Below, in pieces: positions 21,566-55,470 of a stretch of DNA of 64,000 nt; position 1 is the first letter of the stretch, and the number at the start of each line of letters is the position of its first letter. The notes beneath the pieces were generated by a model. It was given only the letters and a program-made list of their open reading frames with translations, made no database searches and was not told where the DNA came from. Made by a program: the position numbers and the translations under genes. Source of the DNA: Pomacea canaliculata (Eukaryota > Mollusca > Gastropoda > Architaenioglossa > Ampullariidae); contig NC_037600.1 of the NCBI RefSeq assembly GCF_003073045.1, positions 11,396,758 to 11,460,757 of the forward strand, read 5' to 3'.

Positions 21566-22348
21566 TTGAGTCAAAATCCAACTAAAGCAAAAAGTGTTTG
21601 GTGCGAGCTACGAAACAGTGTCTCATGAAAGTGCTTCATTCACCAACACAGTCCTGACAGTTTTTTTTTTAAATTGATAAAAACATTTTCTTCACTCAGA
21701 GGCATAGAAACCTTAAGTAATAATTTTACCTATTGGGTAGCAGAAGCAAATAAAAACGGATAAAAACTTAAAGAGACTTCACGCCTGAAAGAGTCCAACT
21801 TCTTTCATCTTCTATTCTTGAGTACATCAGTCAGTTGCTACTACCTTTAATTCCTTTCTTCCCGAATGAGGGGAACGGGAAAAGACGAGTGGAGCAGTTC
21901 CAAAAAAACCTTTGCTTACACTTCTTTTAATTGTCGATGAACAGTAATTTATGAACAGTCTTTTTAAATTTAATGAACACAGCCAGAAGCCAATGTTCGA
22001 TTCAAGGTATTTAACAAATTTACAGCAGCACTTATGTGTATACTTCTTTCGTAGTGCTTAAATAATATGCAGTCAGACTTCTTTTAATGCTAAGAAGTTG
22101 TTTTCCCTTTTACGTGTGGGGGAAAGGGGAAAGCTCTTCAAATTGTTCTTATTTGTTAATGCATTTCAGCAGGAAAAAATCATACTGAAAAACAATTTGT
22201 ACTCTTCTTGTTTTTCCATAGTAAACAGGTTGACGAAACAATTAACTGAAGCTCTCATTTCTAATGTCAACGCTCAAGTTGGTGCCAACGTCATTCACAA
22301 AAAATATTCTCGATTGACTGTCTCAGTCTTCTTGTTCTCTGATATTCT

Positions 22349-25300
22349 TTATGTTCTCATAGATGTAGGAAGGGCTGTCACCTGTAAAACAGACAACAGA
22401 GCAGCAGGTACAAAGCTTAGTGTTTTACTTATCAAACAAACGTAATGTCAACTAAATAAACTCCAGGAACTAGGTAAGACAAGTGTCTTCTCTTTATTGC
22501 TCATTAACTGCAGTTTTCTAGACACCTTCATGTTATCACCGTTAAAGAGACCGTTATAGTCTCCCCAGGCAATCCCAAACTCCTCTGTGAAATATAAAGT
22601 GTGTTTGTGTTAGGAACTCGACTGGTTACGATTGTGTAGTGTGTTGTTGTGACTGCAAGACCAGGTAACTAACCATTGTTTAGTATGGACACTAGTATTC
22701 ACTGTAAACTCATTTGAGGCATTCCCTAATAGGCCTGTGGGGCAGAAAGAGTGTGTGAAGTTTGTGAAGGAAACAGTCGTGAAGAATGTAGTTCCTAGCC
22801 CAGCCAATGGGGTTAAAGAAAGGAACGACATACAGGACAAGTCCCAAAGTTGACAGAAGAACCGCACCGAAATGTTACAAATATTACAAAGGTTCTACCT
22901 CCCTCATAGTTGTAACAGGTGGAACTACTGGAGCTGCCAACCGAGGCTCATTTGTTTCAAAGAATATTGAGATTTTACTCGGAGGCGGGGATAACTGTCG
23001 CTACTCCCAGACTAACGGAGAGGATCCACTGACGGATAATTTTCTTCCTGTGTTGTGATTAGTCTAACAACCTAGTAACCCAGAGACAAGGACACTACCT
23101 TTGCTTTTCGAAAGGCCGCATGGCGGACATCTTGAGTGAAAGTAGTTTATAGTTTATGAAAACAAATTAGTGAATCCATATCCATTATTGGACATTGGAA
23201 TTTTCTGGTTTTGAAAAACAAAACAAGCTTTAATGACTGTGACCCAAGAGGTCCTAGTTGAAAACTGTGCGATAGTGTAGAATATATAAATAGATATAGA
23301 GGAATGCATGTGTTTATGTATTTATTTTTTGTGTTTTCAACCCTGCATGACGTTTTATATTAAAATTAATCATTAAGATAAAGTGTTTGGTTGTAAGCAT
23401 ATATACATTAAGGATCATGCTTAGAAAAAGAAAATGAATTTAAAAGAAAATAGCTATTACAACAACAAATGAAGCTAACCAAGTTTTTAAAAAAAATTCC
23501 ACTATGCACTGAGACACCCACTGATCTGTTTGTTTTCTTCTGTCATTGTCAGTGTCTGCCTGTATGACTGACTGGTGTTTGTGATAACCTGTCTCTTACC
23601 TTAGTAACTGATCTGCCAATACTAAAGAGAGCAAACAAGGGTTGTGTAATATTTTTTGCTACAACGCCCTGGTCCTGTCCGTTGATGTAGAGGTGAAGGT
23701 CGTTGGATGAGGTCACCAGTACCCCGACTCGACTCCCGACTTGAAGTCTCATGAGTTTGTTTCTGAGCGGTATCCTCATCTGCATATAAATACCTGATAT
23801 TTTTATCTTATTAATAAAATATTGGGCAGAGGGTGAGCACCCCACCCTGACCTCCGTCTTTAACTGTAACACGCACTTTTTGACAAATAATTTTTGGTAA
23901 CTGAGTACGAGAAAAAATGTTCGAAATTTTTCGAAAAATGTTAGGTATGAGCAGGGTTTTCCGTGACTTGATGTACAAAAAAAGATTTTGTTTACACACT
24001 AGGGTCAGATTTATTTAGGTCAGTAAAAGCTTTCGTTCAATTTCTCCAAACGGGTTATTCCCCGGCCTCAGAATCCATTTTTACAAAATAAGTCTTAGAA
24101 CACACTTCCATTGTTTTATCCACAATTTTATAAAAGTTACTGTCCAACAAATCAAATCGCCTAAATATCTTACCCTATCTCACCTAAGTCAACATATGCG
24201 CATCCGTCTAAGGTCTCTCTTATTGGCCTCAGTCTACATATTTAGATGTCTGTAGGTTTATATTTACAGTAGCTAACTCGGGAATTACTTCCTCATTGGA
24301 AAACAAAAGAAAATCCATCAAAACCTTCAAGCATGCTTTGTGTAATAAAAAAGTGAAAATAAGTGACTGATACTCAGATTCATCTCTTACACCAAGACCA
24401 AACCACAAATCATCTGTACTCAGAGACATTAAGACTTACACGTTCTCCCTGGCGGAGGACCCGACCGGGCCTGATGATAACGGAGTGTTGCAGGTATGTA
24501 CACCACTGTGTCACAGGGAGGTGTGCAGGAGAAATTCTTGTCACACCCAGTGATAGATTGTTGTACACATCTGTTACTGAGTCCACTCTGACCTGTGTCA
24601 ACATCCCAGTGTCATGACATGTCAAGCTGTGACAGCTTATTAAGATGACTATTTGCACTAAAGGATGTCAATCTCTCAGTAAAGCCACAAGTGTGAAAAG
24701 AGAAAAAATGTATTGAGACTACTTAATCCGTCCTCAGTAAGCTGTCATCAACTTGTATTAAGGATTTTTAGAAAATGGAAACAAAATAATTCAAAATGAT
24801 TTTTTTGATTGCGTCTTTACCCTGTAAAAGAAAGAAAAGTAAATAAAAGTAATTTTATTCTATAGTCCCATTTATTACTAACAGTACTAATCCTGATTAT
24901 AATCATCATCCTTGTCATCATCATAGTTTTAGTCAAATATCTTACTTCATACAAGACGTTCTCTAACATAGGGTCACGTGACACAACCACCCCATCAATG
25001 GAGTCATCCGGCTGTATCGTCTCCGCGGTCCTGTTACCGTTCGTCAGACGAATGTTTTTTCCGCAGTTGTCGTGGATTACCAGGACTGGTGGCTGTGGGT
25101 CCAACTGTAAATAATATCCATGAAAATTATTAACAGATCTATAGTATACCGTATTTATTAACTAAAAATGTTCTGGTATTAGTGTTATGAGTTGTATTTC
25201 ATAATTATTTCTTCTGCTGAGATCTACAATCATACCCTTAGTAATGTCTTATGTGTCTAAGAATCCACTTCCCATACATTAAATCATATTATATCACACA

Positions 25301-27172
25301 TTAACCTTTACATTCGTTTGAAGAATTTACAGGCGATGACTGAATAAAACATGCATTCTGAAATAAATTTAACTAAACTATAACAGACTGTGTGTGTGTC
25401 TTTAAGTATTTATGTCAGGAAATGGGATATGAACTTTTGTGATCAGGGTTTTGCTAGGGTCCTTACATTTTGTTTCAAGCTCTAAATAACAGTCACAACA
25501 GTATTTTGATAAAGGTGTATAACAGTTTAATTTCCTCTGTTTACTTTTAGAGATGTAGAAACAAGTAATGAACAATTAGTGAAGTGTGTAGATACTTTTC
25601 GTTCACTTAAACCTTTTTACAAGAGCCTTGTCATAGAACTTGCTTCTAGTTAGATAGTGTGTGTGTGCGCGCGTTCGGTTGTATCCATTTACATTCAAAT
25701 GTACTGGGTGTGTGTATCGGTGTTAGACGTCACACGCAAAAATACAAGAAGAAAGTATGCTTTGAATCTATTACAATGCTTCCTAAAATAATACATTTCC
25801 TTAACACGTCACATGACCAGACTGTTTTCATAATGTATTTTAAGATTTCACGACCTGCTTGTTAAAACTTATGCACCCAGATGTGTCAAGAATTCAGCGG
25901 GCACAGATATATGACAAACGTGCTCTGCCTCTCTCTGTTTTGAAACACACATATCCACATACTACATATAACACCATTTTAGCTTTGTCACTAGCTGCTG
26001 ATACAAGGGAGGTTTCTCAAGAAATGGAAAATGACTCGCAAAGAAAAATATTGTTTAAATGTTACAAAAAAACCCTAAAAATTTATCAATGATTAAAAAG
26101 GATAGAATTGTACCTCTGGCTCTATCTTCAACATAAGAAGCTCGTCTTCTATCCGTCTCACAACATCTTGACAGCACTCTACACTTGACAAGGGCGTCAC
26201 CCACACGTCTCCTTGCAGGTCAGCGCTGAGGTCAAGGCTGTTTACCCTGTCTGTCAGAGCCTGTGTCATGTGTATCAGTGCAGGACGTGGTGACACTGCC
26301 ACCGCTCGCGTCACAATGTGTTTGTGTGACGTCACCTTCCCTACACGGTAGCTAAGGCCTGTCTTGACGTCACATAGCGACTTCCTGATTTTGAGATGTT
26401 GCTTGCGACACTTGTCCTTCAACTTGTTACAAACATCTTCCACCAGCTTGTGAAGACGGTCACATGTCTTGTCTACTTGCGCCATGTCCTCTTGTTCGCT
26501 AACATCAACTTCCTGTAGACGTGACGTCAGCCGACCTATAGCCTGCTCTAGCTTCTGCTCCGCTTCTGCCAGATTTTTTGTTAGGTCGGTAAGTGACTTT
26601 TGAACTGACTTTATTTCATTGTCAAGATAGTTTGTTTCTAGACATACTATGTGTTTGTTAGCCTTACAGGCTGAGCAGACAGCGAGGCGGTGCTCGCGGC
26701 AGAAGAACTCCGCCTGTTTGTCGCCGTGGTCAGCACACAGTGCAGGGCGGCTGGCAGCCAGACGTTCAGGTGTCACAGTGCTGACACTCTCCACATCGTG
26801 ACTGCGGGTGGCAGAAAGTTTTCTGTGAGCCTTTGTACACATTGTACACAACATGTCCTGACACTGCATACAGATGAAGTCCGCCCTGACGTCCTCACAC
26901 ACACAACAAAGGTGATCTTTACTCAGCACACGAGCGCTCTCCACCAGCGCTTCCATCACAAAGTCTGTCGGCAGGGCGTCAACAGTGTCGGACGAACTTC
27001 TATCTGACTGCTCTACTATAGGACATCTACACAGCGGACACCCGGCATCAGCTTTGGAGTCCATCCAGGAAATGACACATTGTCGACACAGGAGATGACC
27101 ACAGGGTAGAATCTTTGGTGTGGTGAAGTCATTGGTGCACACAGCACATTCTCTTTCGTGTTGCTCAGCCAT
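22349..27172 (-). CDS. TN-A: RING, two B-boxes, coiled coil, NHR ubiquitin-ligase-like gene
   Basis: Coding exons are 26114-27172, 24946-25104, 24440-24592, 23600-23779 and 22349-22381. They give 353+53+51+60+10 residues, all phase 0. Residues 9-48 form a C3HC4 RING (C9, C12, C24, H26, C29, C32, C45, C48), the E2-binding module. A first B-box spans about 89-125 and a second about 146-177 (C146, H149, C158, H161, C166, C169, H174). A coiled coil covers about 185-265. The last four exons make one NHR: DNCGKNIRLTNG, then LGVTRISPAH, then VGSRVGVLVTSSN with LHLYINGQDQGV, ending VTALPTSMRT. The ATG has a Kozak-like context (AAGATGG) and an acceptor 16 bases upstream, so a noncoding first exon is expected. 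It probably acts as a cytoplasmic E3 ligase with the NHR as target binder; targets are unknown. Confidence 0.88.
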
Positions 27173-28395: not shown

Positions 28396-28791
28396 TTTTG
28401 TTAAAAAATCTTGCTATACGTTACATCATCACGTCACGTTTTGTGTTGGAAGAACAGCAGGAGTTGGACTCGTGACCCACGTGATCGACGTGTGACTATT
28501 GTACGTATAGTACCCATGGAACTTATGTTGACGTGGGTAGTGAGACTTGAGGTTAACTCTCGCCCACGTGCCCGGTACCCAAGGCCTAATTTTCACTTTT
28601 CGACTAAAAATCACGAATACTACAACATACATTGACAATAAGGAGGAGAGCGTAACACTACACAAATCTTCAATGACTCAGGAGATGGTTAGAGTTGTCA
28701 GATCCTATGACAAACCATCATGTTTATATGAGAAATCCTAAGTACTTATTGCTGTGATTTAAACTTCAAAAACAAGTGTAAAATATATTAC

Positions 28792-28996
28792 CTTTAGTTT
28801 ACTCCAAAAGGAAGGTTTCAAAGTGTTCTCCGTTTGAAATAAAAATAAAGACACAAACTGAACAGGTCCACCCCCTAGAAAGCTTGCTTCACCTTTGTCC
28901 GTGATACAGTAGACTGTGATAAATATTACAGAGATAGTGATAATGAAGGGAGCTCTTAACCCAGGGACAACAACTAGAATGCTTGTCATTTGATAT
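28792..28996 (-). pseudogene. Orphan transmembrane exon, frame-damaged copy
   Basis: The counterpart of the 216-base exon at 50059-50274, with the same acceptor context (GTAG before ATATCAAATGAC) and donor (AAAG then GTAATA). It encodes a hydrophobic helix (FIITISVIFITVYC) then CITDKGEASFLGGG. An 11-base deletion near its start shifts the frame relative to the D/E copy, but an internal ATG restores the membrane frame. It lies upstream of TN-A once the 740-base repeat is discounted, at a spacing similar to the copy upstream of TN-D. Confidence 0.55.
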
Positions 28997-29423
28997 CTAC
29001 ATGTACTGCCAATGGAGATAATACTTTCTGTGTGCCACGTCACTATCTCCAATCACTTGTACAGACCGAGTGTTTATTAATGTAAGTGATTTCGTGACTA
29101 GAGTGCTGTAGAAAAAAAGCTGTTTAGTTCGATTCGTTACTAACAATCTTATCTAAGTATCCTCGTGCCTACCATCCCCTACTTGTGTAATGTTGTCTTT
29201 GTCACTAATGTCCACATTTTCTGACGACAGTAAACTTCAGTGTTGCCTCCATTAGAAGCTTATCTTCATTAGAGCTTTCACCCGTTAAAACCGTTCTTTA
29301 GAAAATCAACTGACTAATTTACACGGCAGACACACAGTTCAGAACAATAACAATATTATGACTGATTAAGCTTTGTATATTTTCAAAATGTATGATGGCG
29401 TGTGTTTGTTTAAGTATGTTGTT

Positions 29424-30429: not shown

Positions 30430-33400
30430 CTCCGGAGACCGATGTAGGGAGGGGCTGTCACCCTGAAAACAAAACAAAAACAGAGCAGCAGCGTAACAAA
30501 GCCTTAGTGCCTTTACTTATCAAACCAAACAAACGTTTGTACAAATGTTAACTTTACTAAAATAAAAAAAAGTCTTTACGCCAACTCCAGGAAATAGTTA
30601 AGACAAGTGTTGTGATTAGTCTAACAACCTAGTAACCCATAGACAAGGACACTACCTTTGCTTTTAAAAAGGCCGCATGGCGGACATTTTGAGTATGAGT
30701 AGTTTATAGTTTGTGAAAGCCAATTCCATTACCGGACGTTGGAATTTCTGGGTTTTGAAAAAAATTAATTTTCCAGACTGTGACCCAAGAGGTCCGTTAA
30801 TTGGGAAAAATGTGCAATATTGCAGAATATGTAAAAAGATATAAAGAAATTTATGTGTTTATGTATTTATTTTTTGTTTTCAACCCTGCATGACTTTCTT
30901 TAGTAAAATTGATCTTTAAGATACAGTGTTTGGTTGTAAACATATATACATTAAGGATCATGCTTAGAAAAAAGAAAAAGAATTATAAAGAAAATAACTA
31001 TTACAACAACAAATGAAGCTAATCATGTAAAAAAATTCCTTTGGGCACCGAGACACCCACCGATCTATGTTTCCTGCTATCGGTTTCAGTGTCTACTGTC
31101 CGTAGTCTGGCGTTTATGATAGCGTGCATATCTTACCTGACTAACTGAACTGGTATTACTAAAGACAGCAACCAGGATGTGTAACATTGTGCTGCAACAG
31201 GTCCTGTCCGTTTAGTAGAGGTGAAGGTCGTTGATGAGCGTCACCAATACCGACTCGACTCCCGACTTTAAGTCTCCCGAGTTCTTTTGCGAGCGGCATC
31301 GGCATCTACATATAAATACCTGATATTGTTATCTTATGGATAAAGTATTGGGCGGAGGGTGAGCACCCAAGCTTGGCCTCCGTCTTTAACTCTGTCACGT
31401 ACTTTTCCATAAATATTTTTTTTGTAACTGTGTACGATAAAAATGCTTAAAACCTTCCGAGAAATGTTAGGTAGGAGAAGAGTGATTTCAGTTTACCGTG
31501 ACTTGATGTACAAAAAAAAGAGTGTTTGATTAATGACTAGGGCCTTATTTATTTAAATCAGTAAAAGCCTTAGCTGAATTTCTCCATATGGAGTATTCCT
31601 CGGCTTCAAGAAACATTTCTACAAATCAAGGCTAATAACACACTTCCACTGTTTTAACTGCAATTTTATCAAATTTACTGTGAAAAAATAAACCTTCTAA
31701 ATATTTTTTCATATCTCACCTAAGTCAACATATGCACGTTCGTCTAAGGTCTCTCTTATTGGACTCATTTTATATATTGAGATGTTTGTAGGCTTTTATT
31801 TTCATTGAGCAAGGATTTTAATTTTAATTTGGGAATAACATTTGTCCTTAAGTTTTACGTGCTCATTAGAAAAGAAAATACAACTAAACATTCAATCATG
31901 CTTTGTGTAAAAAAAAAAACGAGAAAATAAATGAATGATACTCAGCTTCATCTCTTACACGTAGACCAAACCACAAGCCATCCACACTCAGAGACATGAA
32001 GACTCACACATGTTTGGTAGTAGAAGAGCTGACCAGGCCCGATGATAACGGAGTCTTGAAAGTCTGTAGGCCATTGTGTCACAGTCAGGTGTGCAGGAGA
32101 GATTTTTGTCACACCCAGTTCTAGCTCGTTGTATCTACCTGTTGCTGCGTCCACTCTGACCTGCGTCAACATCCCAGTGTCATGACATGTCAAGCTGTGA
32201 CAGCTCATTAGGATGACAACATGCAATAAAGGATGTCAATCTTTCAGTAAAGCTACAAGCGTGACCATAGAAAGAATGTATTGCTACTCAATTCGTCTTC
32301 TTTAAGCTCTTGTCAAACTTGTATCAACGATCTCGAAAAAAATTAGAAAAAAATTCAGACTGACTTTTTTTGTTTGTGTCTGTACCCTGTAAAATAAATC
32401 AAAATCACTAAAAATATTTGTTTATTCTGAATTCCGATTTATTAAGAACAGCTCTGATCATCATTATAATCACCATCATTGTTATCATCATAGTTTTAGT
32501 CAAATATCTTACTTCATACAAAACGTTCGCCAACATAGGGTCACGTGACACGACCACCCCGTTACCGAAGGCCTGAGGCTCTATCTTCTCCGCGGTCCTG
32601 TTGCCGTTCGTCAGACGAATGTTGGTTCCACAGTTGTCGTGGAACACAAGGACTGGTGGCTGTGCGTCCAATTGTAAGTAATATTCTTTTGTCCATGAAA
32701 ATTATTATCAATCTATCTATAAAGTTTTATAATAAATAATTAATAATAAATAATTAATAATAAAAAATAACAAAAAAAATATAAATCATTATTATACTGT
32801 ATTAAATATCTGAAATGTTTTGTCATTAGTGTTATTGCTTACATTTTATTTCAAGCTCTAAACAACAGTCACAACAGGATGTTGATAAAGATGTAGACAG
32901 TCAAATTTCGTCTGTTTGCTTGGACCGCTGTATGAACAGGTAATGGATAAGTATTTAGTGCTACTATGTAGATACTTAGCGTCCTCTTATACCTTTTACA
33001 AGAGCTTTCTTTTACTTACTGGCTTATGTTTAGATCGTGTATGTGTGTTTGCGCGCGCGCATTCGGTTGTATCCATTTAAGTCCAAATATAATGGGTGAG
33101 TAAGGTATCACACGCAAAAATACAAAACGAAAGTATGCTAAAAATCTATTACAATGCTTTCTAAAATTATACATTGCCTGAACACATGTCACATGACCAG
33201 ACTGTTTTCACAATGTATTTTAAGATCACTTAAAGATTCTGAAGACATGCTTGTTAAAAACGTATGTACCAGGATGTTCTTAGAATCCAGCTGGCATAGA
33301 TACCATAGATATGGCAAACTTGCTCTCTCTTTCTCGCTATCTCTCTTTCACTCACACATATATACACACACTAGATATAACACATTTTTCTCTTTATCAC

Positions 33401-34598
33401 TAGCTGCGGATTCAAGAGAGGGTAAAGAAAGGATTCTTAAGAAGAGAAAGATGACTAGCAAACAAGAAACTTGTTTTGATGTTCCAGGAAACCCTTAAAA
33501 AATTCAAAGTAATTAAAAATGAGAAAATTTTACCGTTAATTCTGTCTTCTGCTTCAACAAAAGGAGATCGTCTTCTATCCGTCTCACATCTTCTTGACAG
33601 CACTCTACACTTGACAAGGGCTTCACCCACACCTCTCCTTGCAGGTCAGTGCTGAGGTCAAGGCTGTTGACCCTGTCTGTCAGAGCCTGTGTCATGTGTA
33701 TCAGTGCAGGACGTGGTGACACTGCAACTGCTCGCGTCACAATGTGTTTGTGTGACGTCACCTTCCCGAGACGGATGCTAAGGTCAGTCTTGACGTCACG
33801 TAATGAATTCCTGATTTGGAGATGTGACGTGCGAGTGTTTTCCTTTAAATTCTTACGAAAATCTTTCACCAGCTTCAGAAGACGGTCACATGTCTTGTCC
33901 ACCCGCGCCATGTCTTCTTGTTCGCTGACATCAACTTCCTGTAGACGTGACGTCACCTGACCTATAGCCTGCTCTAGCTTCTGCTCCGCTTCTACCAAAA
34001 TCTTCGCTAGGTCGGTAATTGAAATTTGAGCTGACTTTATTTCATGTTCAAGATAGTTTGTTTCTCTGCATACTTTGTGTTTGTTAGCCTTACAGGCTGA
34101 GCAGACAGCGAGGCGGTGCTCGCAGCAGAAGAACTCCGCGTGTTTGTCGCCGTGGTCAGCACACAGTGCAGGGCGGCTGGCAGCCAGACGTTTAGGTGTC
34201 ACAGTGCTGACACTCTCTACATCGTGGCTACGGGTGGCAGAAAGCTTTCTGTGAGCCTTTGTACACGGTGTACACATCATGTCAAGACACTGCATACAGA
34301 TGAAGTCCGCCCTAACGTCCTCACACACACAACAAAGGTGATCTTTACTCAGCACACGAGCGCTCTCCACCAGCGCTTCCATCACAAAGTCTGTCGGCAG
34401 GGAGTCAACAGTGTCGGACGAACTTCCATCTGACTGCTCTACTATAGGACATCTACACATCAGACACCCGGCATCACGTTTGGAATCCATTAAGGTAATG
34501 ACACATTCTCGACACAGGAGATGACCACAGGGTAGAATCTTTGGTGTCGTGAAGTCATTCGTGCACACGGCACACTCTCTTTCGTGTGGCTCAGCCAT
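30430..34598 (-). pseudogene. TN-B: TRIM-NHR gene with broken last NHR exons
   Basis: Exons are 33534-34598 (355 codons), 32513-32671 (53) and 32008-32160 (51), all open and phase 0, with intact RING, B-boxes and first two NHR parts. The next exon, 31137-31305, is 169 bases instead of 180. Small deletions put it out of frame after VGSRVG and it reaches a stop before the donor. The terminal exon near 30430-30461 has an extra G at the acceptor (CAGGGTGACAG versus CAGGTGACAG) and no longer reads VTALP. A truncated protein of about 507 residues, lacking a proper NHR end, could still be made from the open exons. It could therefore be a decaying gene or a truncated form. The start is supported by paralogs (MAEPHERECAVC). 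Confidence 0.75.
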
Positions 34599-34852
34599 CT
34601 TGGAAGAATCTGAAGCTACAAAACATTCAAAGATAATGCACAGTTTGCAGCCTTAGGTTAGTGATTATCTCTGTAGAATAGAATTTAATGTGAAGACATT
34701 TAAGGTAACAAGACATAAAGGTAAATTGCATTCCTTTGTTTTTTAAGATGTATTTTCGAGTTAAACCAAAACAACAAAAACAGGAGTATAATTGAAAAAG
34801 GAGAAAGGTTTTATTAAAAAGAAAATATTTTGGCAGGTTGTCAAGAGTATAG

Positions 34853-35003: not shown

Positions 35004-35085
35004 AGGGGCTGGATGTATGTGACGTGCAAATATGGACTAGGATAGCACTAGGACTCCCTCTACACCAGTCCCTTTATTGTATGTA

Positions 35086-40228: not shown

Positions 40229-43200
40229 AAGGATGAGAGAATTAATTTGACAGATCTTATCCATAGAATACTCTTCATTTAATAAACAAAGTCACTGATG
40301 TCATTCAATACCTTACCTATTACCGACCTGCAGTCAAAGACTTTTATCGAACACAAGTATATGTGAGTGTGAGCGCGTGTGCATACGATTGTATTTGTTT
40401 AAATTCAAATTTAAATTGTGGGTGAAGAAACATTTGAAATAGTGAAGCCGTTTCTTACAATTTCAGTATTTAATTCTGTTACACTTGAATGATAGGACCG
40501 CTTCCTTCTTGCACCTACACACACAATGTCCAGTTGTCATCACTTGTTCACAAAGGTGTCGACGATATGCGTGTGTAGGATATGCGCTATATAAATCTTC
40601 ACTTATCATTATTATTATATATTGTCAGAGCTTTTTCTGCAACACTGGACTGTGTTTAGTTTGTGTGTATGTGTGTAAAGGTTGTGTCTGCTTTAGTTTA
40701 AATGTTATATGCTCACTCAAATGCAACATTTACTAAACCGGTAAAAAAGTAAACCTGACCAAAATAAGGACAAATATTATAATGGAATGTTAGATGCTTT
40801 AAACTTGTTGATGACTTTCTTTAAAAAAACTGTAAATGGAAAATTATATACATACCATCTTCCAGCTGTTAGAGCTTTTACAGTTAAGGAAATGAAGCAA
40901 ATGTTCAAAACTGTTTCTATACATGTTTTATAATATATATATAGACGATGCTAAAAATATTGAAAAATTGTTACCTGGCTTTTCTTTACAAACTTTTTCT
41001 TTTTGGAAGAATCACTTGGCAGGTAAGGCTAGTAACAGAGAGAGAAGATTGAGAAATATGCGATGGACTTGGACTGCTAAATGTAATATTGCATTCTTCC
41101 CCTAAATGAGTTACTCGTGAAATTTCTAGGCGTGTAATGTGATAGAAAATAGGTGAAAAATATTTTACACAACTTACATACATACTTGCATATAGCTACA
41201 TTAATACATATATCAGGAGTAAAAGTAAAATGTGTAAAAAGATTATTTACCTTAATTTGCTTATCAGTCTTTTCCACTTTGAACGAGCAGCTTGAGAAGG
41301 AACTCTATTAACAGACAGAGAGCATTGAGAAACATGTCATTTGATGATCCCCAACTTGATTAACAGTCTGAAAACAAGACTCTTTTAAGAATTTTTCTTT
41401 GAGTTAGTTTGCGTATTTAAAAAAAGATTTTTATCATTTACTGCTTCTCTTTATTTTAATGTTTATTCTTTTCAGTTACTCTAAAAGACATTTAGTGGGA
41501 CAGAGACAGAAAAGGTTGTAAATCGTTGACTTCATTAAGTCGTTCACTTGCTTCACTGACCACAACTGATGGCTCTTATATTTGTTTCGTCTTGTACTTA
41601 GCGCAGTTAAATAATATAGATAAACATATTAAAGTTTAAAAATCTTTTATATGTATATCACCAAAAACAGTTATTTATTAAGATTGCATACTAGTTTCAC
41701 ATACCATTAATATGGAGTCTTAATTTGTCTGTTACTGAATGCATTTGATGTCGTAATTAATATAAAGGTAAAAATAGACATTTAAAAATGAATGGTTTGT
41801 CCATAAATATGCATATCTATACACTTTTATAATATAAATTAATACAAATAATACAAATTTAATGTGTAATGTATAAACCTATTACAAACATCAATATAGT
41901 ATCTTAACATACATAACAATTACTCATTACAGTGTTATCCCAAATAAAAAATTCGAATATAATTTACTAATAAATAACGGGTATAAGAATTTTCCTGAGG
42001 AATTACCCTAAGTGACTGTTACTTATACGACCAAGTTAATATAAGTATCAACCGTTATCACAAACACGCAGAGTGACACTTTTTTCTCTTTCTCTCAAAA
42101 ATGTCTACAGATTGCATATAACAGCACAGAATGGGATTTTATGTACACATAATCCTTTCTCTATCGCATTGTAACTTGGACACACTCCAGCTGGATACTT
42201 CTACCAGACAGGAAAGGACCATGAAAGAAGGATGAGGGAAAGACGAGGAAACCTGTTTTTTTTAACAAAAAACAAATTAATAATACAACAAAAGGCAGTT
42301 AACCTTTTTTTTAAACTTAGTCTTCAGCTCCTCCAATTTCAGGAGCTCGTTTTTTATCCGACCCACAACATCTTGACTCCATTCTGCACTTGAAAAGGGC
42401 TTCTCCCACACCACTTGTTTCAAGTCAAAGCTGAGGTCAAGGCTGTTGACCCTGTCTGTCAGAGCCTGTGTCATGTGTATCAGTGCAGGACGTGGTGACA
42501 CTGCCGTGGTTCGCATCACAATGTGTTTGTGTGACGTCACCTTCCCTAGACGGTTGCTCAGGGCAGTCTTGACGTCACGTAATGTATTCCTGATTTGCAG
42601 ATGTGACGTACGTGTCTTTTCCATCAACCTCATACGGAAATCTTCCACCAGCTTCTGAAGACGGTCACATGTCTTGTCTACTTGCGCCATGTCTTCTTGT
42701 TCACTGACATCAACTTCCTGTAGACGTGACGTCAGCTGACCTATAACCTGCTCTAGCTTCTGCTCCGCTTCTACCAAAATCTTTGTTAGGTGGGTAAGTG
42801 AGTTTTCAGCTGAATGTATTTCAAAATCAAAATCGCTTACTTTTAAACATTCACTGTGTTTCTGAACCTTGCAGAATTTGCAGACAACGAGTCGGTGACA
42901 GAAGCAAAAGCTGTCCGCCTGTTTGTCGCCGTGGTCAGCACACAGTGCATGGCGGCTGGCAGCCAGACGTTCAGGTGTCACAGTGCTGAGACTCTCCACA
43001 TCGTGACTGCGAGTCGCCGACATCTTCTTGTGTACTTTCGTACAGGCTGTACACAACATGACCTGACACTGCAGACAGATGAAGTCCGCCCTGACGTCCT
43101 CACACACACAACAAAGGTGATCTTTACTCAGCACACGAGCGCTCTCCACCAGCGCTTCCATCACAAAGTCTGTCGGCAGGGCGTCAACAGTGGCGGACGA

Positions 43201-43377
43201 ACTTCCATCTGACTGCTCTACTATAGGACATCTACACAGAGGACAACTGGCATCAGGTTTGGAGTCCATCCAGGAGATAACACATTGTCGACACAGGAGA
43301 TGACCACAGGGTAGAATCTTTGGTGTTGTGAAGTCATTCGTGCACACAGCACACTCTCTTTCGTGTGGCTCAGCCAT
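36823..43377 (-). CDS. TN-C: TRIM-NHR ligase-like gene with a long first coding intron
   Basis: Exons are 42304-43377 (358 codons), 39070-39228 (53), 38560-38718 (53), 37735-37914 (60) and 36823-36855 (10), all phase 0 and open. The ATG at 43377 is preferred over one 11 codons upstream because paralogs begin MAEPHERE. It carries a RING (ECAVC...CGHLLCRQC...CPLC), a B-box 1 and a B-box 2 with a variant second half (DSFCFCHRLVVCKFC, with the zinc ligands kept). The NHR holds DNCGKNICLTNG, LGVTRISPAH, VGSRVGLLVTSSN and an end VTALPTSWRT. The intron after the RING exon is about 3.1 kb, against about 1 kb in TN-A and 0.9 kb in TN-B, and contains a block junction at 40228. The RING and NHR halves may therefore come from two different ancestral units. 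Splicing across it is inferred, not proven. Confidence 0.78.
40490..40625 (+). repeat. Possible SINE tail
   Basis: Contains GTAGGATATGCGCTATATAA followed by ATCATTATTATTATAT, a 3' end common in invertebrate SINEs with short ATT repeats. No clear RNA polymerase III boxes upstream, so this is a truncated copy at best. It lies in the long TN-C intron. Confidence 0.4.
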
Positions 43378-45883: not shown

Positions 45884-48800
45884 TCATGTCCTCCTAGATA
45901 CAGGAAGGGCTGTCACCTGTTGCAAAAAGAATAAGGCATCAGATACAAAACCAAATGATTTAGTAATAAAGAATTTAATAAATCTCCACTCTACAAAAGT
46001 TACGCATGTAGGTCAGCATCAGGAAGCGGATAATAAAATGTTTTCCATTTTATCATTTATTAACTGCAGACTTCTGAACATTTTTACGTTATCACAGTTC
46101 AAGAGACATTCGTAGTCTCCACAGACAATCCCAGACTCCTCTGTGTAATGTAACATGTACCTGTATCTCTCACCTTAGTCACTGTACTCCAGAGATCAAA
46201 GACAGCGAAACAGGGCAGGGTGACACCTGTTGCTGCCACACCCTGGTCCTGTCCATCGATGTAGAGGTGAAGATCGTTTGATGAGTCCACCAGGACCCCG
46301 ACTCGACTCCCGACTTGAAGCCTCTGGAGACCTTTTCCTATCGGTGTCGACACCTGAAGACAAATACCTGATATCGTTACCTTCAATAAAATACAGGAAA
46401 AACAGTAAGTACTTCAGTTTTACCGCTGTCTTTAATTCAAGCATGCCTTATTTCACAATTATTTTTGTAACTGCGTACGATAAAACAGAAATGGTTGATA
46501 CCTTCCGAAAAAATAATAGGTAGTCGCAAGGGTTATTTATTTTTATCGTGACTTGATGTACAAAGAAAAGAACTCTTGATTTTCGACTAGGGGCTGATTT
46601 ACTTAGTTCAATTAAAAAATCAGTTAAATTTCTCCAAACGTAATATTCAGCAGCTTCAGGTAACATTTCCACAAATCTAAGAAAATACTTCACTTACATT
46701 CTTAAGACACACTTCTATAAAATTTACTGTGAAAAATACCAATCTGATAACAACCTAAATAACCTGTAACTGCTAAATAAATACGTCAACATATTCACAT
46801 CCGTTACTGAGGTCTATCTTACTGACTTTGTTCTAGGCAAAAACATTTTTATAAAAATTTTGGGAAATAATACAATACTTAATTTTACCTTGTGATTAGA
46901 AAAGGAAAGAATATTTCACTAAACCTTTTAGAATGTTTTGTTTAATATAAAGATGAAATAAAGTGAATGATAATCAGTTTTAACTTTTATTGTAGACCAA
47001 ACCACAAAAGCATATGTACGGACTTGTCATGAAAACTCACAAGTTTTGCCTGGTGTGCGACCAGACTGGGCGAGATGATAACGGAGTCTTTCCAGTCTGT
47101 AGAAAACTTTATCACAAGGAGACGTTCAGGAGATATCTTTGTCACTCCTAATAATAGCTCGCTGTTCTCACCTGATATTGTGTCAACTCTGACCTGTGTC
47201 AACATCACAATGTCATGACATGTCAGCCTGTGACAGCTGATTAGGGTGTTTACTTGACCTAAACGATGTCTATCTCTGACTAAAGTGAAAGTTGGGACTA
47301 TAGAGACAGACACTGTGTATTAAGACTACTTAATCCGTTCTCATTAAGCTTTTCTCAAACTTTTTCAACAATGAAAACAAAATAAAACAAAAAATAATTA
47401 AAAATGATTTTCTAAACAAATTGCATCACGGTAATTTCTGTAATAAAGCCAGTTTTATTAACATCATCATCATCATCATCACCATCATCGGTCTAGCACA
47501 ATATCTTACTTCATACAAGACATCCGCCACCATTGCATCACGTGACACGACCACCCCGTGGTAGATGGCATGTGACTTTATCTTCTCCGCGGTCCTGTTA
47601 CCGTTCGTCAGACGAATGTTGGTTCCGCAGTTGTCGTGGAACACAAGGACTGGTGGCTGTGGGTCCAGCTGTAAATAATGTCCATTTTTTGGTGGGGAAA
47701 GTGATATTTATTAATTTATTAAATAACTCGACACTTATAATGTTTGATAATAAATAGTTAAGAAAAAAAGAAATATAAATCCTTCCTAAGATCCAACATT
47801 GACTAAACGCGTGTAACATAAGTCCTGACAAGAATAAAGCTCGAAAAAAGAAAGTTGTGGTCATGTTGTCAACGATACAAAAACTTGGTGCGGAGACCAA
47901 ACTCATCATTATGTTGTCGACAGTTTCTATTTTCACGTAAAAGACTTATGTTTATTAGCTAGAGCACAGTCTGAAAAGATGATCAGAAAACGAGAAAATT
48001 GGTATTATTGCTACAATAAGAGAGAAAAGAAAAAAAGAGGTGACACAAAACACTTTACCTTTGTCTTTGTTTTCTGCTGTTCGAATGTCAGTAGCTCTTG
48101 TTCTATCCGTCCTACAACTTCTTGACAACTCTCTACACTTGATGAGGGCTTCACCCACACCTCTCCTTGCAAGTCGGCGCTGAGGTCAAGGCTGTTGACC
48201 CTGTCTGTCAGAGCCTGTGTCATGTGTATCAGTGCAGGACGTGGTGACACTGACGTCACTCGCGTCACAATGTGTTTGTGTGACGTCACCTTCCCTAGAC
48301 GGTTGCTCAGGGCAGTCTTGACGTCACGTATGGAATTCCTGATTTGGAGATGTGACGTGCGAGTCTTGTCCTTCAACTTGTTTCGAAAATCTTCCACCAG
48401 CTTCTGAAGTCGGTCACATGACTTGTCCACCTGCGCCATGTCTTCTTGTTCACTGACATCAACTTCCTGTAGACGTGACGTCAGCTGACCTATAGCCTGC
48501 TCTAGCTTCTGCTCCGCTTCTACCAGAATCTTTGTCAAGTCGTTCAGCGATTTTTGTACTGATTCTGTTTCATCGTCAAGAAAGCTTACTTTCAGACATA
48601 CTTTGTGTTTGTTAGCCTTACAGGCTCTGCAGACAGCGAGGCGGTGCTCGCGGCAGAAGAACTCCGCCTGTTTGTCGCCGTGGTCAGCACACAGTGCAGG
48701 GCGGCTGGCAGCCAGACGTTCAGGTGTCACAGTGCTGACACTCTCCACATCGTGACTGCGAGTCGCCGACATCTTCTTGTGTAGTTGTGCACATGATGAA

Positions 48801-49126
48801 CACATTTTGTCTTGACACTGAATACAAATATTTTCAGCCTTTTTGGTGTCACACACACAACAAAGGTGATCTTTACTCAGCACACGAGCGCTCTCCACCA
48901 GCGCTTCCATCACAAAGTCTGTCGGCAGGGCGTCAACAGTGTCGGACGAACTTCCATCTGACTGCTCTACTATAGGACATCTACACAGCGGACACCCAGC
49001 TCTAGGTTTTGAGTACATCCAAGAAATGACACATTGTTGACACATGAGATGACCACAGGGTAGAATCTTTGGAGTGGTGTAGTAATTCGTGCACACAACA
49101 CATTTTCGTTCTTGTGGTTCATCCAT
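45884..49126 (-). CDS. TN-D: TRIM-NHR ligase-like gene
   Basis: Exons are 48059-49126 (356 codons), 47510-47668 (53), 47041-47193 (51), 46174-46353 (60) and 45884-45916 (10), all phase 0. The RING is complete but varied (KCVVCTNYYTTPKILPCGH, CQQC, CPLC). The first B-box differs from its neighbours (CVCDTKKAENICIQC), while the linker to B-box 2 is nearly identical to TN-A. The NHR reads DNCGTNIRLTNG, LGVTKISPERL, VGSRVGVLVDSSN and LHLYIDGQDQGV, ending VTALPVSRRT. This is the most compact copy. An acceptor 16 bases before the ATG (TAAGCAG) again points to a noncoding first exon. Introns diverge more from TN-A to TN-C than those do from one another, so this is an older duplicate. Confidence 0.88.
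47461..47491 (-). repeat. ATG-rich microsatellite beside NHR donor (TN-D)
   Basis: CAT/ATC units about 20 bases inside the intron after the first NHR exon. The same position carries ATG-rich runs in TN-A (24895-24930), TN-B (32455-32490), TN-C (39015-39050) and TN-E (52398-52440). Confidence 0.8.
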
Positions 49127-50058
49127 TTTGGAATCAAAGCTTCTGCTTATACAAACACAAAGATAACAAAATTTTATGTGGTTCTCATCTGTTGAAAAAA
49201 GTGTATTTATATGCAGATTTCAAAAAAGTAAGATTTATTGCATTGAAAAGTGAGGAAGGGCGAAAAGGGAAACACATTTCCTAAAAGACAATCTGATTAG
49301 TGAGAACCGCTTTTCTCAGAATTATTTTCTTATTTTTTGATAAGTAAAAGGAAAATACAATAGAGGTAAAAGATAAGAGAAAAGACAATTAATTTTAAAA
49401 AAAAGAATAAAAAGGCTTCTTTATTATTTCTTATTAATGATGTAATATTACTTTTCCTTCTCTCTATAAACATTTAAACAGTATTGTTAATTAAGTGAAG
49501 CAGCTACTTTAAAAAGTCGTCTGAGCGGGAGCTTCCTTTGTCAAGACCGCTGATAAGGGAGGGAAGTCAGCAGGTAATATAGTGATTCATTTTCCTAGTT
49601 CTCTCCCATTGACTACTGTGTCCGCTAGTTATTACTTCGCAGCAAAGGTTCGTTGAGGTTTGTATGTTTGTCTTTCGGACTGGAAATCTGTGAGCCATGA
49701 TTGTGTTCTATAATACTTAAGTTTCTACACTCCTGATTATAAAGAATTAGAAAGCTCCTTTAATAATCCACGCAAGAAAGTGTATTAAAAAATTGATCCG
49801 TACTTCTACTGATAAAATCGTCTACAGATGATAAAGTCGTAATTCTCACACAATGTTAGCGCGACGAGACTAGTCACAGGTAAGTTGATGAATGTCACGT
49901 AGATAAGGGGCGTGTAAACATCATGTGACGACCCGACAACAGACATCATGGAATAGTTGTAGTGAACATACAGTGTTTTGATCAAAATATATTATTAATT
50001 ATTGCTATGATCTTAAATTCATGTAACAAGTAGCAAAAAACCACATTACAGTGTTTAC

Positions 50059-50274
50059 CTTTAGGTTACTCCAAAAAGAAAGTCTCAAAGTGTTCTGCGT
50101 TTGAAATGAAGATAGAGACACAAACTGAAGAGGTCCATCCCCTAGAAAGATTGCTTCACCTTTGTTTGTGATACAGCAGACTGCGATAAATACTACAGAG
50201 ATAGTGATGATAAAAGTAGCTGTCAACGCTAGGGCAACAACTAGGATGTTTGGCTGTTTGCTGTCATTTGATAT
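50059..50274 (-). CDS. Orphan phase-0 transmembrane exon
   Basis: A 216-base open segment between an acceptor (ACGTAG) and a donor (AAAG then GTAAAC), in phase 0 at both ends. It encodes 72 residues with a helix at about 9-34 (NILVVALALTATFIITIS followed by VVFIAVCC), then CITNKGEAIFLGDG and a Phe/Ser-rich tail. A paralogous copy lies at 28792-28996, which argues for a real exon. It sits about 0.9 kb upstream of the TN-D start and 0.8 kb downstream of the TN-E stop. Joining it to the TN-D first exon gives a stop at once, so its partner exons are unknown. It could belong to an alternative TN transcript with a membrane anchor, or to a separate small gene. Confidence 0.45.
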
Positions 50275-51106
50275 CTACGTGTACTGTCAATGAATGTACT
50301 TTCAATACTTTCTGTATTTTTGTGTGACATGACTATATTCACTTTACAAGCTCGAGTTTTGATTATTTGTAGTGATTGTGTGATTTTAGAAAGCTAGTGA
50401 AAAGTAATTTAGTTTGTTACGAACGATCTTATCTAAGCATCCCAATGTTGTCATCTTCCATCCACCACTTGTGTCACTAAAGTCAACATTTCTGACTGGA
50501 GTAAACACATATTTTGTCTTCATTAGAATCTTATCTTCATGAGAGATTGTTTGTGTATGTTTGTGTTTTAAACTTCATGATTGATCAGTATTGATTTCAT
50601 GTGTACACTCTGTAGAAACGCTTAGAGCCGAAGTAAATTTATATTTTATTTATTTTTTTTTATTTGTATAATATGATTCTAATAACACTTACCAATCACT
50701 CATTAGCCTTCTATCAATTGAGGAAGATCACTTAACTGTTCCCAGGTCTCAATATTATCAACCGTTTTCTCAACGTGGAATTTTCATTTCATGTGCCTGA
50801 GTAGATTGTTGATTGTTCTTTGCTGATCGCTTTAAAAAGAAGACACTATGCTGCTTGAATGACTAACTCTCTGGTGGCAGTGCAGTCTATCACAAGCCAC
50901 AGCAAAAGCGAGAGATGTGTCACATGATTTTAATATCACAGACCAAAGATCAGTATAAACAGATATATATATAAACAGATCTCTACACATCAACATTAAC
51001 GGCTTCAGTGTAATGTACTCGGGACTTAAACTGAAATCTTGAAAAAATGAGCTTCAACGCCTGTGGTAACACTGTTTTAACCGTTTTCCTCCAATGAAAG
51101 CCTTGT

Positions 51107-52397
51107 TTAGACAATCTTGACAACAGGAAGTAGCGTCACCTGCACAATAAAAATGAAAACATCCCCTGTCACTTGTGATACTTTTTTTTTTACTTAGAAT
51201 AAAATAATTTGAAGTTTGCAATTAAAAACAATTAGAAACATGTTTACCTTCAGGACGCCAGGTAAGAGCACGAACACGGCATAGCAGTGCCGAGGAATAT
51301 CACCTGTGTCGGTGTCTATCTTTTGATCGTCCAAGTAAAAGTGAAGATGATTAGATGAATCTTTCATCACTCCTATCAGCCCTTTTTCAATTGTCAAGTG
51401 TCTCCATCTTGAAAGACCGTAGTTCTGTCAAAACAGAAAGGTAGCAATAATAAACTTCGAACTAATTTGTTTGGTAGAAATATTCAAAACTTTTCAAAAG
51501 CGAGGACGCAGGAGACAATTTACAAAATAAAAAGAAAGGTTTCAGGAAAAGAGAAAATACAGGATTTTATTTAGAAATAATCGTCGTCTAAATTAGTTAT
51601 CTCTCCACTCGTCGTCTCGTCATCCCCGTATCTCGCTACATTTTCTGACAGGATGTATCGTGCTCCCTCTTTATGTCGCCATACTCGCCCCTCATGAAAC
51701 ATATATGTTGGACAGATGGTAGTGAGATAGCGAGCTGGGACTGACAATGTTTTAGCATATTTTGGTTTATATAATACTCTATACGATCATACATTTCATG
51801 AACTTAATATTATTTAAAATGTTTTTGACCTTTGACCAAATCCTGTCTTTTATTACAGGTCATTGAATAAATGAGGTAGAGAGGCTTGTAAACAAAGGAC
51901 AATTCAAAAGTCAAGCACAAGGTAATTTTACATTCGTAAAATAAAAGGTTTGAATTACTTTTTGAAGTGAGTCAAGTTTGGAGGGTTTAGTTTCTGTTAT
52001 TCCATAGTACACGAAACCTTTGGACATAGTTTTGTCTACTCTGACCTGCACACACAAAGGTAAAGTGACAAATATTTCTCTGTTTCACTACTGACTTGGA
52101 ATTACCTTTAAATTAATTAATCAGATACAGGTACTTCGTTTTCTTAAATGCTGGTTTTTAGAGCTGGAAATAGCTCTAGAAAAGATGGTTATTTCTATTT
52201 TTCTGTTATGAGAACTTTTGGTCATTGACGCAAGAACCTGTTGCATCTTTGATAATGATAATGATGTCTACTAACGTTTTTTATTTCAGTGATTAATTAT
52301 TTTACTACACGTGCATTATTCATTAAGGATGCAAAACTGCATATTTTTACATTTTTTTAATTTTAGAACATTATGGTAATTAATTTTATTGCTATTG

Positions 52398-52439
<42 letters not shown>

Positions 52440-54034
52440 AATTACCTGATATAAAACGTTTGGCTCTACCGGCCGACAAGATGCCACTACTCCAGGTCTT
52501 GCAAAATAAAGTCCATCATTTTTCTGTCCTGCAATTTTCTTGTCTAAGATCAGTGTACTGAAGATGCCAGAATTTGCATGAAAAGCCAGGTGTTGCCTCT
52601 GCACACAATGAAAACAATTTTCCTCATTTAGGATAGGATCTTGAACTTACCCATAGTAATATATGTAATAAGTATGAAAATAAAAAATATATGTATTTAT
52701 ATTTGCTTAATCGGGTCTCATTAGACCGATAAGACATTGTATCTGAGTTGTAGTTTTAAGAAAAGACTTTAAGGAAACCCTTCTTTTAATCTGACTTTAA
52801 GAAAAGTTAAAAGATAATATGATAAGGTAACAGATTTTGCTTTAATTAACAAGAAAAAACCTAGTTACATACACAACAGAGGCACAGACCGTTTCTACAG
52901 TTTTCTTTGAGGAGAAATAATAAAAAAAAGTCATTTTTATTTTACCTGAAGATCGCTTTTCATCCTTCCCAGCATTTGTAGGTCTTTCTCAATGTGTCTG
53001 ACTATGTCTTTATAGCAAGTTGTATCTAGGGAAGGATTAGCCTGGACATCAGCTTCTAGGTCAGCATCGATGTCAAGGCTGTTGACCCTGTCTGTTAGAG
53101 TTTTGGTTGCGTGTATGAGTGCAGGACACGGTGCCACCGATCGGACTCGAGCCACAATATTTTTGTGTGACATCACGGTCCCTAGTCGCCCTCCAAGTGA
53201 GGATTTAAACTCTTTGAGTGATGTCCTGACTTGCGAATGGGATAAACGGCTGATTTCCTTTAATTTGTTTCGAAAACCTTCCACCAGATTGCGAAGACGG
53301 TCACATACAGCGTCTACCTGTGACACGTCGTTTGCTTCACTGATGTCCACATCCTCCAAACAATTGTCCACCTCAGCCATCGCCTGTTCCACAAGCTTCT
53401 CCGCCAGAGAGAGTCTGTTCGTCAAATCAGTCGTTGAAGACTCAGCTGACTTCATTTCTTCGTCCATTTCTCTCATTAAGGAGCAGTTTTTGTGTTTCAT
53501 GAAGCTGCAAAGTAAACAGACAGCGAGGCGGTGGTCGCCACAAAAGTATTTCGCGTGTTTGTCGCCGTGGTCAGCACACAGTGCAGGGCGGCTGGCAGCC
53601 AGACGTTCAGGTGTCACAGTGCTGAGACCTTCCACATCGTGATTGCGAGTCGACGAAAACTTTTTATGAGCCTTGGCACACCCTGAACACAACATGTCCT
53701 GACACTGTATACAGATAAACTCCGCACTGACACCATCACATACACAACAAACAGGATCTTTATTCAGCACACGAGCGCTATCCACCAGCGCTTCCATCAC
53801 GAAATCTGTTGGCAGGGCATCGGCAATGTCAGCTGAACTTTGACCTGGTCGACCTTGTTTCTCGACTATAGGAGATCTGCACAGAGGACATCCAGCGTTA
53901 GGTTTTGAATCCATCCAGGAAATGACACATCCAAGGCAGAGAAGATGTCCACATTGTAAAATCTTTGGTGTGGTGAAGCCATTCATGCAGACTGCACATT
54001 CTAACTCCGTCGGCTGAGCAGATGATGACGCCAT
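51107..54034 (-). CDS. TN-E: divergent TRIM-NHR ligase-like gene
   Basis: Exons are 52946-54034 (363 codons), 52446-52598 (51), a second NHR exon ending at 52045, 51248-51424 (59) and 51107-51139 (VTLLPVVKIV then stop). The ATG at 54034 (MASSSAQP) is chosen by alignment to paralog starts; another lies 11 codons upstream. RING (ECAVCMNGFTTPKILQCGH, CLGC, CPLC), both B-boxes and coiled coil are intact. The NHR is much less like the others: it has AFHANSGIFSTL instead of FHDNCGKNIRL and LHFYLDDQKIDT instead of LHLYINGQDQG. The second NHR exon starts VRVDKTMSKG, reads LTHFKK, then hits a stop. A donor just before it is out of phase with the next exon, so this part is unresolved and may need another small exon. 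It is the oldest member, or the one under the most different selection. Confidence 0.75.
51571..51786 (-). other. Open frame inside TN-E intron, origin unknown
   Basis: A 71-codon open segment on the minus strand includes KYAKTLSVPARYLTTIC, YMFHEGRVWRHKEGARYI and the acidic end NLDDDYF then stop. The composition looks like real protein rather than chance. It lies between the second and third NHR exons of TN-E, where a missing NHR piece is expected. The segment GRVWR could mimic the RGWVFYR part of paralogs, but the splice phases do not fit. It may be the 3' end of a transposon gene. Confidence 0.35.
52396..52440 (-). repeat. ATG microsatellite beside NHR donor (TN-E)
   Basis: About 14 uninterrupted CAT units (ATG on the coding strand), directly after the donor of the first NHR exon. 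It is the longest and purest of the series. Confidence 0.95.
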
Positions 54035-55470
54035 CTTGGAAAAGAAACAGTCAACAGCAGTATCCAAATTAGAAAACCGAATAGAAACTACACTTCAATA
54101 ACTTTAGATTGGACCTTTTGCACTGTCAAAGGACTTAAAGTGACTTGTGGTATGTATCATAAGCTATGGTGTTAGTACTTGCAGCTTGAAATTCTTTAAC
54201 CTGAAAGCAAAAGAAATCGTGTCGTCCATCAGGAAAGCCTCCTCTGTGTGTAAAAGCTTCGACACATCCCGGAATGTCCTTTCCAAAACGGCCAGAGGCT
54301 AACACAAATTTTGTTCAGGGAGTTTCTGAAACCTTTAGAAGACTTTTTCTTTAAAGAAATCGAAGGTGAGCTCTACTACACCGGTGCAAATAAACGACCC
54401 TTCATTGGAGAGATCGAGATTGTCACATACCACCTCTTATCATATGACCTTAGTATCACCATGACCTAATCCAAGCTGTCAACTAAACCTTACACAAGAT
54501 TCCGGGTTAGCAGTTGAAGATAACGAAAAATGGATCAGATCCGAGCACATTTCTAGTACAGCCCAACCTTTTCTTATATCAGAAGTTATAAAAGAATAAA
54601 AGAAAAGGAAAGAACGAAAAAACTAAATAATTATTACAACCAGCGAACCCAAGTGCCTTTATCAACTTGGTTTTATTTATTTTTAATACTGTAAATAAAT
54701 TCAAGGCAAAAACGTTTTTTGTAAAAATGCATCTACCATCTATTTCAGGGCCATTGTCACGTGATGATGCATTTGTTTGGTTTGTTACAAGGAGTGTCTT
54801 CGCGTCAAACTTCATATTACATGGTCGCCTGGCAACACGACAAGGTGGCCCATTTCCCCACGCTGCCCTCCCAACTGTCTTCCCCATATCCTGTAATGTA
54901 CTCATCCCTTTCTTCCATTTCCTGCGTCGTGAGTGAACGAAGGTGAGTAACCTTTTCGAATAGCCACCCGGTGCATGTGTACATGCACGACCCCTGACCT
55001 TTCTACTAAGATAACAATTAAAAAACTTGTATTATTTGATAACGTCGGGTAGAAGTGATGTTTGAAGACAATTACTGTAGAAAATCTATTTTCTGCTTTT
55101 AGTGTGTTTAGTTACTTGTGAGGGCAAAGTTCTGATTAGAGCAATTAGAATAAAGACAATCGTGAAGTGGGGGATTAATTAAGCTGGCAGCACAACCGTC
55201 TGGCTGCGCCATTCAGCAACCGGTGGCCAGTTTCATCTTCCTTCGTCATCCGTTTCCTGTCCATAGTAAAAAGTTGCCCCTGGTTCGAAGCCCTTTACGG
55301 GATAAATAAACCAACTTTTTTAAAACTCTGGAGCATGACGTTAATTGCTGCTACGAATTATATACTTGTCCTTAGACGAAAAAGAATCCCAGAAAACATA
55401 TAGAGAATAAACCACTTTCAGAGGAATACGTACGTGTAAAATGAGGTAACAAGAAAAATATGTTATTTAC
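54035..55470. other. DNA upstream of TN-E
   Basis: Expected to hold the TN-E promoter and first exon, but none could be identified. Overlapping open frames on both strands at 54579-54936 have no recognised domain. At 55187-55325 a possible tRNA-derived SINE has a B-box-like GGTTCGAAGCC at about 55282, but no convincing A box. Confidence 0.4.

Follow-up and report, generated by a model that had tools for sequence, protein, structure and literature searches.

A tandem array of snail genes joining a TRIM module to an NHR domain, a possibly undescribed class of TRIM protein

A 64,000-nucleotide stretch of the Pomacea canaliculata genome (NC_037600.1, positions 11,396,758 to 11,460,757 of the forward strand, assembly GCF_003073045.1; hereafter the window) carries a tandem array of genes whose predicted proteins begin as TRIM ligases and end in a Neuralized (NHR) domain. 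The C-terminal domain is what sorts TRIM proteins into classes; among the open-access papers listed, with preprints and subscription journals largely outside, no title or opening of an abstract described an NHR class or proteins that combine a RING, B-boxes and a coiled coil (RBCC) with an NHR. The original prediction had proposed that such a class may be undescribed; as far as those papers reach, the proposal is supported. We consider it probable that the RBCC-NHR proteins form a caenogastropod TRIM class in which the ligase half is kept alike and the NHR diverges, so that the copies make up a set of ligases directed at different targets.

RESULTS

Five genes with a TRIM module

The minus strand of the window contains five long exons, each encoding a RING, two B-boxes and a coiled-coil region, as originally predicted. 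Specifically, Pfam zf-C3HC4 lies above cut-off in all five exon 1 products (1.2e-9 to 4.1e-7), as does zf-B_box, with two stretches per gene. Two sets of B-box residues are invariant across 34 aligned proteins (C92, C101, C104, C109, C112, H116 and H125; C146, H149, C158, C166, C169 and H174), and we take these cysteines and histidines to be zinc ligands. Following the B-boxes, the AlphaFold model contains a long helix of ~110 residues (183–292); profile positions 15–283 match TRIM28 and positions 11–299 match TRIM25. The order of these parts, with an N-terminal RING, B-boxes after it and a long helix after the B-boxes, is that of TRIM proteins. The residues with which a RING contacts an E2 are mostly kept, and the RING is predicted to be the E2-recruiting part of an E3 ubiquitin ligase.

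The 3′ exons of the neighbouring genes were located by querying the window with the exons of gene 4, yielding complete five-exon models with phase-0 AG/GT junctions for genes 1, 3, 4 and 5 (Table 1). The expectation that four phase-0 exons forming one NHR would follow every first exon therefore held for these four genes and failed for gene 2, in which exon 2 has an AA acceptor, exon 4 survives only in broken form, and no exon 5 could be located. The RING of gene 2 also carries changes at two usual RING positions, W to L in the helix and P to L before the last cysteine. In gene 5 the NHR is short and divergent, with a middle exon of 87 bp versus 153–159 bp in the other genes. A nearby segment that resembles the middle of the NHR, and is unused in the annotated protein, is possibly an additional or relict exon of this gene: a six-exon model that includes it gives an NHR score of 35.0 bits (1.7e-8), and the annotated protein without it a Neuralized score of 33.8 bits (3.8e-8).

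A chance pattern is excluded for the five genes, because of their domain E-values and best matches at 75–100% identity to annotated proteins. Self-comparison of the window revealed that the tandem units share matching introns and intergenic DNA; these self-matches, the decaying gene 2 and several decayed remnants support the tandem growth and decay that had been proposed. The plus-strand member and three of the remnants (Table 1) were absent from the original prediction.

The C-terminal domain

Neuralized (PF07177) is above cut-off in all four spliced 3′ regions, as a single stretch per protein, with E-values of 1.4e-24, 1.7e-26 and 4.9e-25 for genes 1, 3 and 4 and the weaker values given above for gene 5. 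None of the other TRIM C-terminal domains searched for (NHL, MATH, filamin, PHD-bromo, FN3 and others) reached the cut-off in these regions. Given that the modelled fold is similar overall to that of SPRY, it is worth considering that these are conventional class IV TRIMs whose SPRY has diverged so far that it merely resembles an NHR. We regard this as very unlikely: the C-terminal SPRY that marks class IV is missing by sequence, SPRY remaining below the Pfam cut-off (0.0093 and 0.087 in two of the four regions, unlisted in the other two) where three of the four domains give the strong Neuralized values above. The best solved match, both by profile and by fold, is likewise the NHR of NEURL4 (2e63), and among the NEURL4 repeats tested the top score (126 bits) belongs to the final repeat in a NEURL4 fragment from the tuatara.

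RING and NHR in one protein

The TRIM-with-NHR architecture is supported by the gene models, independent annotation, a contig with a single open reading frame and the AlphaFold model. It could be argued instead that RING-B-box genes and NHR genes are separate, alternating neighbours and that their fusion is an artefact of gene prediction. Indeed, many submitter-annotated Pomacea proteins (C0Q70_...) have a RING and B-box without an NHR, some Pomacea entries named 'neuralized-like protein 4' have an NHR without a RING, and read-through of exon 1 meets a stop soon past the donor. Against this, GT/AG phase-0 junctions are in frame in 4/4 intact genes, gene 5 is one protein in the annotation, and RING+NHR proteins are known from five species. 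Furthermore, RING and NHR (Neuralized, 6.3e-20) are continuous in one 705-residue open reading frame of P0220, on a 2,484-base contig that looks like cDNA because introns separate the two parts in all five genes of the window; its source label 'lgn' presumably denotes assembled sequencing reads, which is our guess. Several groups of Littorina, Babylonia and Nucella proteins also appear in both the tree of the RBCC parts and that of the NHR parts. Taken together, these points make the artefact exceedingly improbable.

The two trees, of 38 proteins each (Babylonia P0122, with a short NHR match, was left out), agree in pairing Nucella P0221 with Babylonia P0084 and P0120 and in pairing Nucella P0125 with Babylonia P0216 and P0217; in each of them the main Pomacea group stands separate. 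These shared groups fit an old fusion, although the deeper branches of the two trees disagree: in the RBCC tree, four divergent Pomacea members (P0087, P0048, P0070 and gene 5) lie within or next to the Pomacea group, and in the NHR tree they branch outside the rest of the TRIM NHRs.

Annotated relatives and their spread

A search with the gene 4 protein, in which the 7,996 candidates sharing most words were scored, matched 117 proteins, 77 of them named Pomacea canaliculata. Gene 5 is identical to P0045 (C0Q70_17867) over 512/512 residues. Gene 2 corresponds to P0016 (99% over 459 residues), which begins exon 2 four codons later and runs into the intron following exon 3; for genes 1, 3 and 4, no full-length match above 85.5% is among the matches listed. 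The same search returned at least 27 distinct locus tags from C0Q70_17818 to C0Q70_17870 and at least 13 from C0Q70_03789 to C0Q70_03808, on sequences of 24.3 and 45.2 Mb; the array probably extends well beyond the window, which would hold just one part of it. The names given in databases vary without consistency and include TRIM33-like, TRIM45-like, transcription intermediary factor 1-alpha-like, MID2 and neuralized-like protein 4. One annotated protein, P0001 (C0Q70_17824, 925 residues), contains two successive RBCC units, both accompanied by a partial NHR, and probably represents two adjacent genes merged by annotation.

Combining this search with a profile search (the best 120 of 137 matches, P0002, a member of its own alignment, not being among them) and an NHR-region search (397 candidates scored) gave 226 distinct proteins among the matches listed. 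By our count in the Pfam columns, 51 of them have a RING model together with PF07177: 21 from Pomacea canaliculata, 17 from Littorina saxatilis, six from Babylonia areolata, four from Nucella lapillus and two from Batillaria attramentaria, where the counts are of protein clusters, including isoforms and the read-through P0001, rather than of genes. In most of the remaining proteins listed, RING or B-box models occur but PF07177 does not, and the length is often that of exon 1. All 50 of the RING+NHR proteins with a species name come from these five species of Caenogastropoda, and the only named match outside that group among the 19 of the NHR-region search is tuatara NEURL4. As far as the matches listed reach, this supports the earlier suggestion of a lineage-specific family, here specific to Caenogastropoda; absence elsewhere is weak evidence because the reach of the protein searches is limited.

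Variation and selection

The recognition end varies more than the tagging end. Mean column entropy was taken over 20 Pomacea sequences: the models of genes 1, 3 and 4 plus 17 database proteins, of which some are fragments from the NHR end. It is 0.34 in the RING, 0.12 in the linker, 0.41 and 0.61 in the first and second B-box, 0.56 in the coiled-coil helix, 0.93 after the helix and 1.06 in the NHR. Within the NHR, where variable residues were placed by sequence and secondary structure, it is 0.76 in strands and 1.32 in the remainder. For 14 of these sequences, selected because they are almost full length, the median identity is 91% for the RING, 78% for the B-boxes, 75% for the coiled coil and 59% for the NHR, which is the least identical part in 79 of 91 pairs. 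Gene 3 and P0012 have RBCC parts that are 98, 90 and 98% identical and NHRs that are 71% identical, a pattern to be expected where exchange homogenises exon 1 and leaves the NHRs different.

Comparison of nonsynonymous (dN) and synonymous (dS) divergence is suggestive of diversifying selection on the NHR in one pair of six, uncorrected for the six pairs. For genes 1 and 3, the untrimmed NHR gives dN 0.188 and dS 0.072 (ratio 2.62, Fisher 0.003), with exon 1 at 0.62; removing doubtfully aligned codons at the border of exons 3 and 4 gives dN 0.129 and dS 0.050 (ratio 2.59, bootstrap 0.005, Fisher 0.024). Untrimmed dN exceeds the level of the introns (Fisher 0.0009). By exon, the untrimmed ratios are 0.33–0.38 in five pairs and 1.06 in one for exon 2; 1.88, 3.50, 1.45, 0.69, 1.04 and 1.08 for exon 3; and 4.48, 0.60 and 0.46 in three pairs for exon 4.

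Other features of the window

An assembly gap lies to the left of the five genes. Within the tandem units, a repeated stretch holds a short hydrophobic open reading frame, whose first copy (28759–29052) has no Pfam match. Elsewhere the window encodes a G-protein-coupled receptor containing leucine-rich repeats and, toward its right end, probable retroelement remnants; a pair of inverted copies lies outside the RING genes.

Table 1. Features of the window (positions in the window; e, exon; ORF, open reading frame)
Feature	Position (strand)	Length	Details
Further member, e3 and e4	1403–2095 (+), approximate		NHR end of annotated protein P0013
Decayed RBCC exon	16553–17414 (+)		contains stops
Decayed remnant	20412–20608 (-)		fragment of B-box region
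Gene 1	22349–27172 (-)	527 residues	complete; e1 (RBCC) 27172–26114, e2 25104–24946, e3 24592–24440, e4 23779–23600, e5 22381–22349
Gene 2	32008–34598 (-)		decaying; e1 34598–33534, e2 32671–32513, e3 32160–32008
Gene 2, e4 remnant	near 31320–31201 (-)		broken
Decayed RING fragment	34753–35031 (-)		upstream of gene 2
Gene 3	36823–43377 (-)	534 residues	complete; e1 43377–42304, e2 39228–39070, e3 38718–38560, e4 37914–37735, e5 36855–36823
Gene 4	45884–49126 (-)	530 residues	complete; e1 49126–48059, e2 47668–47510, e3 47193–47041, e4 46353–46174, e5 45916–45884
Gene 5	51107–54034 (-)	512 residues	complete; e1 54034–52946, e2 52598–52446, e3 52045–51959, e4 51424–51248, e5 51139–51107; stop codon ends at 51107
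Possible gene 5 exon (extra or relict)	51640–51740 (-)
Inverted copies	246–1072 and 55471–56237		73% identical over 854 columns
Receptor ORF	7499–9652 (-)		low-density lipoprotein (LDL) receptor A, leucine-rich repeats, rhodopsin-type seven-transmembrane domain (Pfam)
ORF upstream of receptor	9754–10101		LDL-receptor repeat-like by eye
Assembly gap	18601–18700	100 N
Repeated stretch	28788–29277 and 50055–50548		73% DNA identity
Short hydrophobic ORF	28759–29052 (-)		counterpart at about 50055–50548 (-)
Probable retroelement remnant	60683–60985 (-)		DUF6451 match
Probable retroelement remnant	61931–62749 (-)		no Pfam match; mosaic of retroelement pieces by eye

DISCUSSION

The architecture, the uneven variability and the kept RING contacts invite the following mechanism. 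The coiled coil would dimerise the protein, the NHR, with the same overall fold as the SPRY of many TRIMs, would bind a target via its variable loops, and the RING would recruit an E2 and ubiquitinate the bound target. Tandem duplication and mosaic exchange between copies would hold the ligase half uniform and let the NHR half diverge, and the outcome would be a panel of ligases with differing targets. Candidate targets are proteins of parasites or viruses, or self proteins that change fast.

Several observations weigh against this proposal. The splicing of genes 1, 3 and 4 rests on homology and splice signals because these genes have no close full-length database match. The model has a pTM of 0.39, so the arrangement of the domains is not predicted. 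The linchpin Arg is absent from 7/34 proteins, and Pfam does not call zf-B_box in every relative. The grouping of the 38 TRIM NHRs versus six NEURL4 repeats has a tree support of only 0.47, and a single origin of the NHR part is therefore not proven. After trimming, NHR dN/dS exceeds 1 in only one of six pairs, the other five giving 0.62, 0.56, 0.46, 0.49 and 0.48; in that one pair, genes 1 and 3, dN is barely over an intron divergence of 0.088 and 0.121, placing it at or slightly above the neutral level.

The family may be real and yet serve development, signalling or reproduction, for example if its members, like Neuralized, ubiquitinate proteins of the membrane or of gametes, with its variability reflecting relaxed constraint after duplication. 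In favour of this view, Notch ligands and the regulators of these ligands are bound by the NHR of Neuralized, expansion and variability are also seen in reproductive genes, and five NHR pairs lie below 1. On the other side, large tandem arrays, pseudogenes and the pairing of conserved ligase halves with variable binding halves resemble class IV TRIMs of fish and mammals (PMC3137616), a resemblance rather than a test. We consider this alternative unlikely, and our guess is that defence is the likeliest use of the family. The immune role raised in the original prediction is suggested by the concentration of variability in NHR loops and gains little from the dN/dS ratios. More specifically, and tentatively, a NEURL4-type NHR joined to a TRIM module may be the caenogastropod counterpart of the SPRY-TRIM sensor repertoire, with a near-fixed effector half and hypervariable NHR loops that would recognise parasite or viral proteins, the halves being re-paired by exchange.

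It is informative to compare the RBCC-NHR proteins with known systems. NEURL4 (KIAA1787) is not known to have a TRIM module; its fragments have several NHRs, in contrast to the one of the snail proteins, whose closest NEURL4 repeat among those tested is the last. Neuralized/NEURL1 proteins have two or more NHRs and, where a RING is present, carry it at the C-terminus; the snail proteins similarly have NHR and RING within one protein, but their RING is N-terminal, of TRIM type and accompanied by B-boxes and a coiled coil. Class IV TRIMs (RBCC-B30.2/SPRY; fintrims, TRIM5/TRIM25) share with them the RING, B-box, coiled coil, a C-terminal beta-sandwich, tandem multigene sets and, in fish, variability concentrated in the C-terminal domain (PMC3137616); they differ in that the snail domain is an NHR by sequence and that named RBCC-NHR members, among the matches listed, come only from caenogastropods. 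TRIM-cyclophilin fusions, such as TRIM5 of some monkeys and a zebrafish fintrim with cyclophilin A, also place a different recognition domain on the TRIM module, although there SPRY was replaced in single genes, as opposed to a family in several caenogastropod lineages. The fish study (PMC3137616) reports class IV TRIM families with positive selection on B30.2 and a cyclophilin replacement; term searches of its text and of a paper on TRIM origins (PMC3503706) found no mention of neuralized or NHR. In molluscs, two further papers describe 22 TRIM-type genes in the Aplysia immunome, with NHR named among the domains in the legend to a figure (PMC9334734), and bivalve expansions of B-box and RING orthogroups (PMC8382680).

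If the reading of a caenogastropod RBCC-NHR class is true, database entries now called, for example, 'TRIM33-like', 'TRIM71-like' or 'neuralized-like protein 4' would need correction. Snails would have put another member of the same fold group on the TRIM module, and the tandem expansion of NHR-TRIMs would parallel the expansion of SPRY-TRIMs in vertebrates, providing an independent case for how ligase families turn into recognition repertoires.
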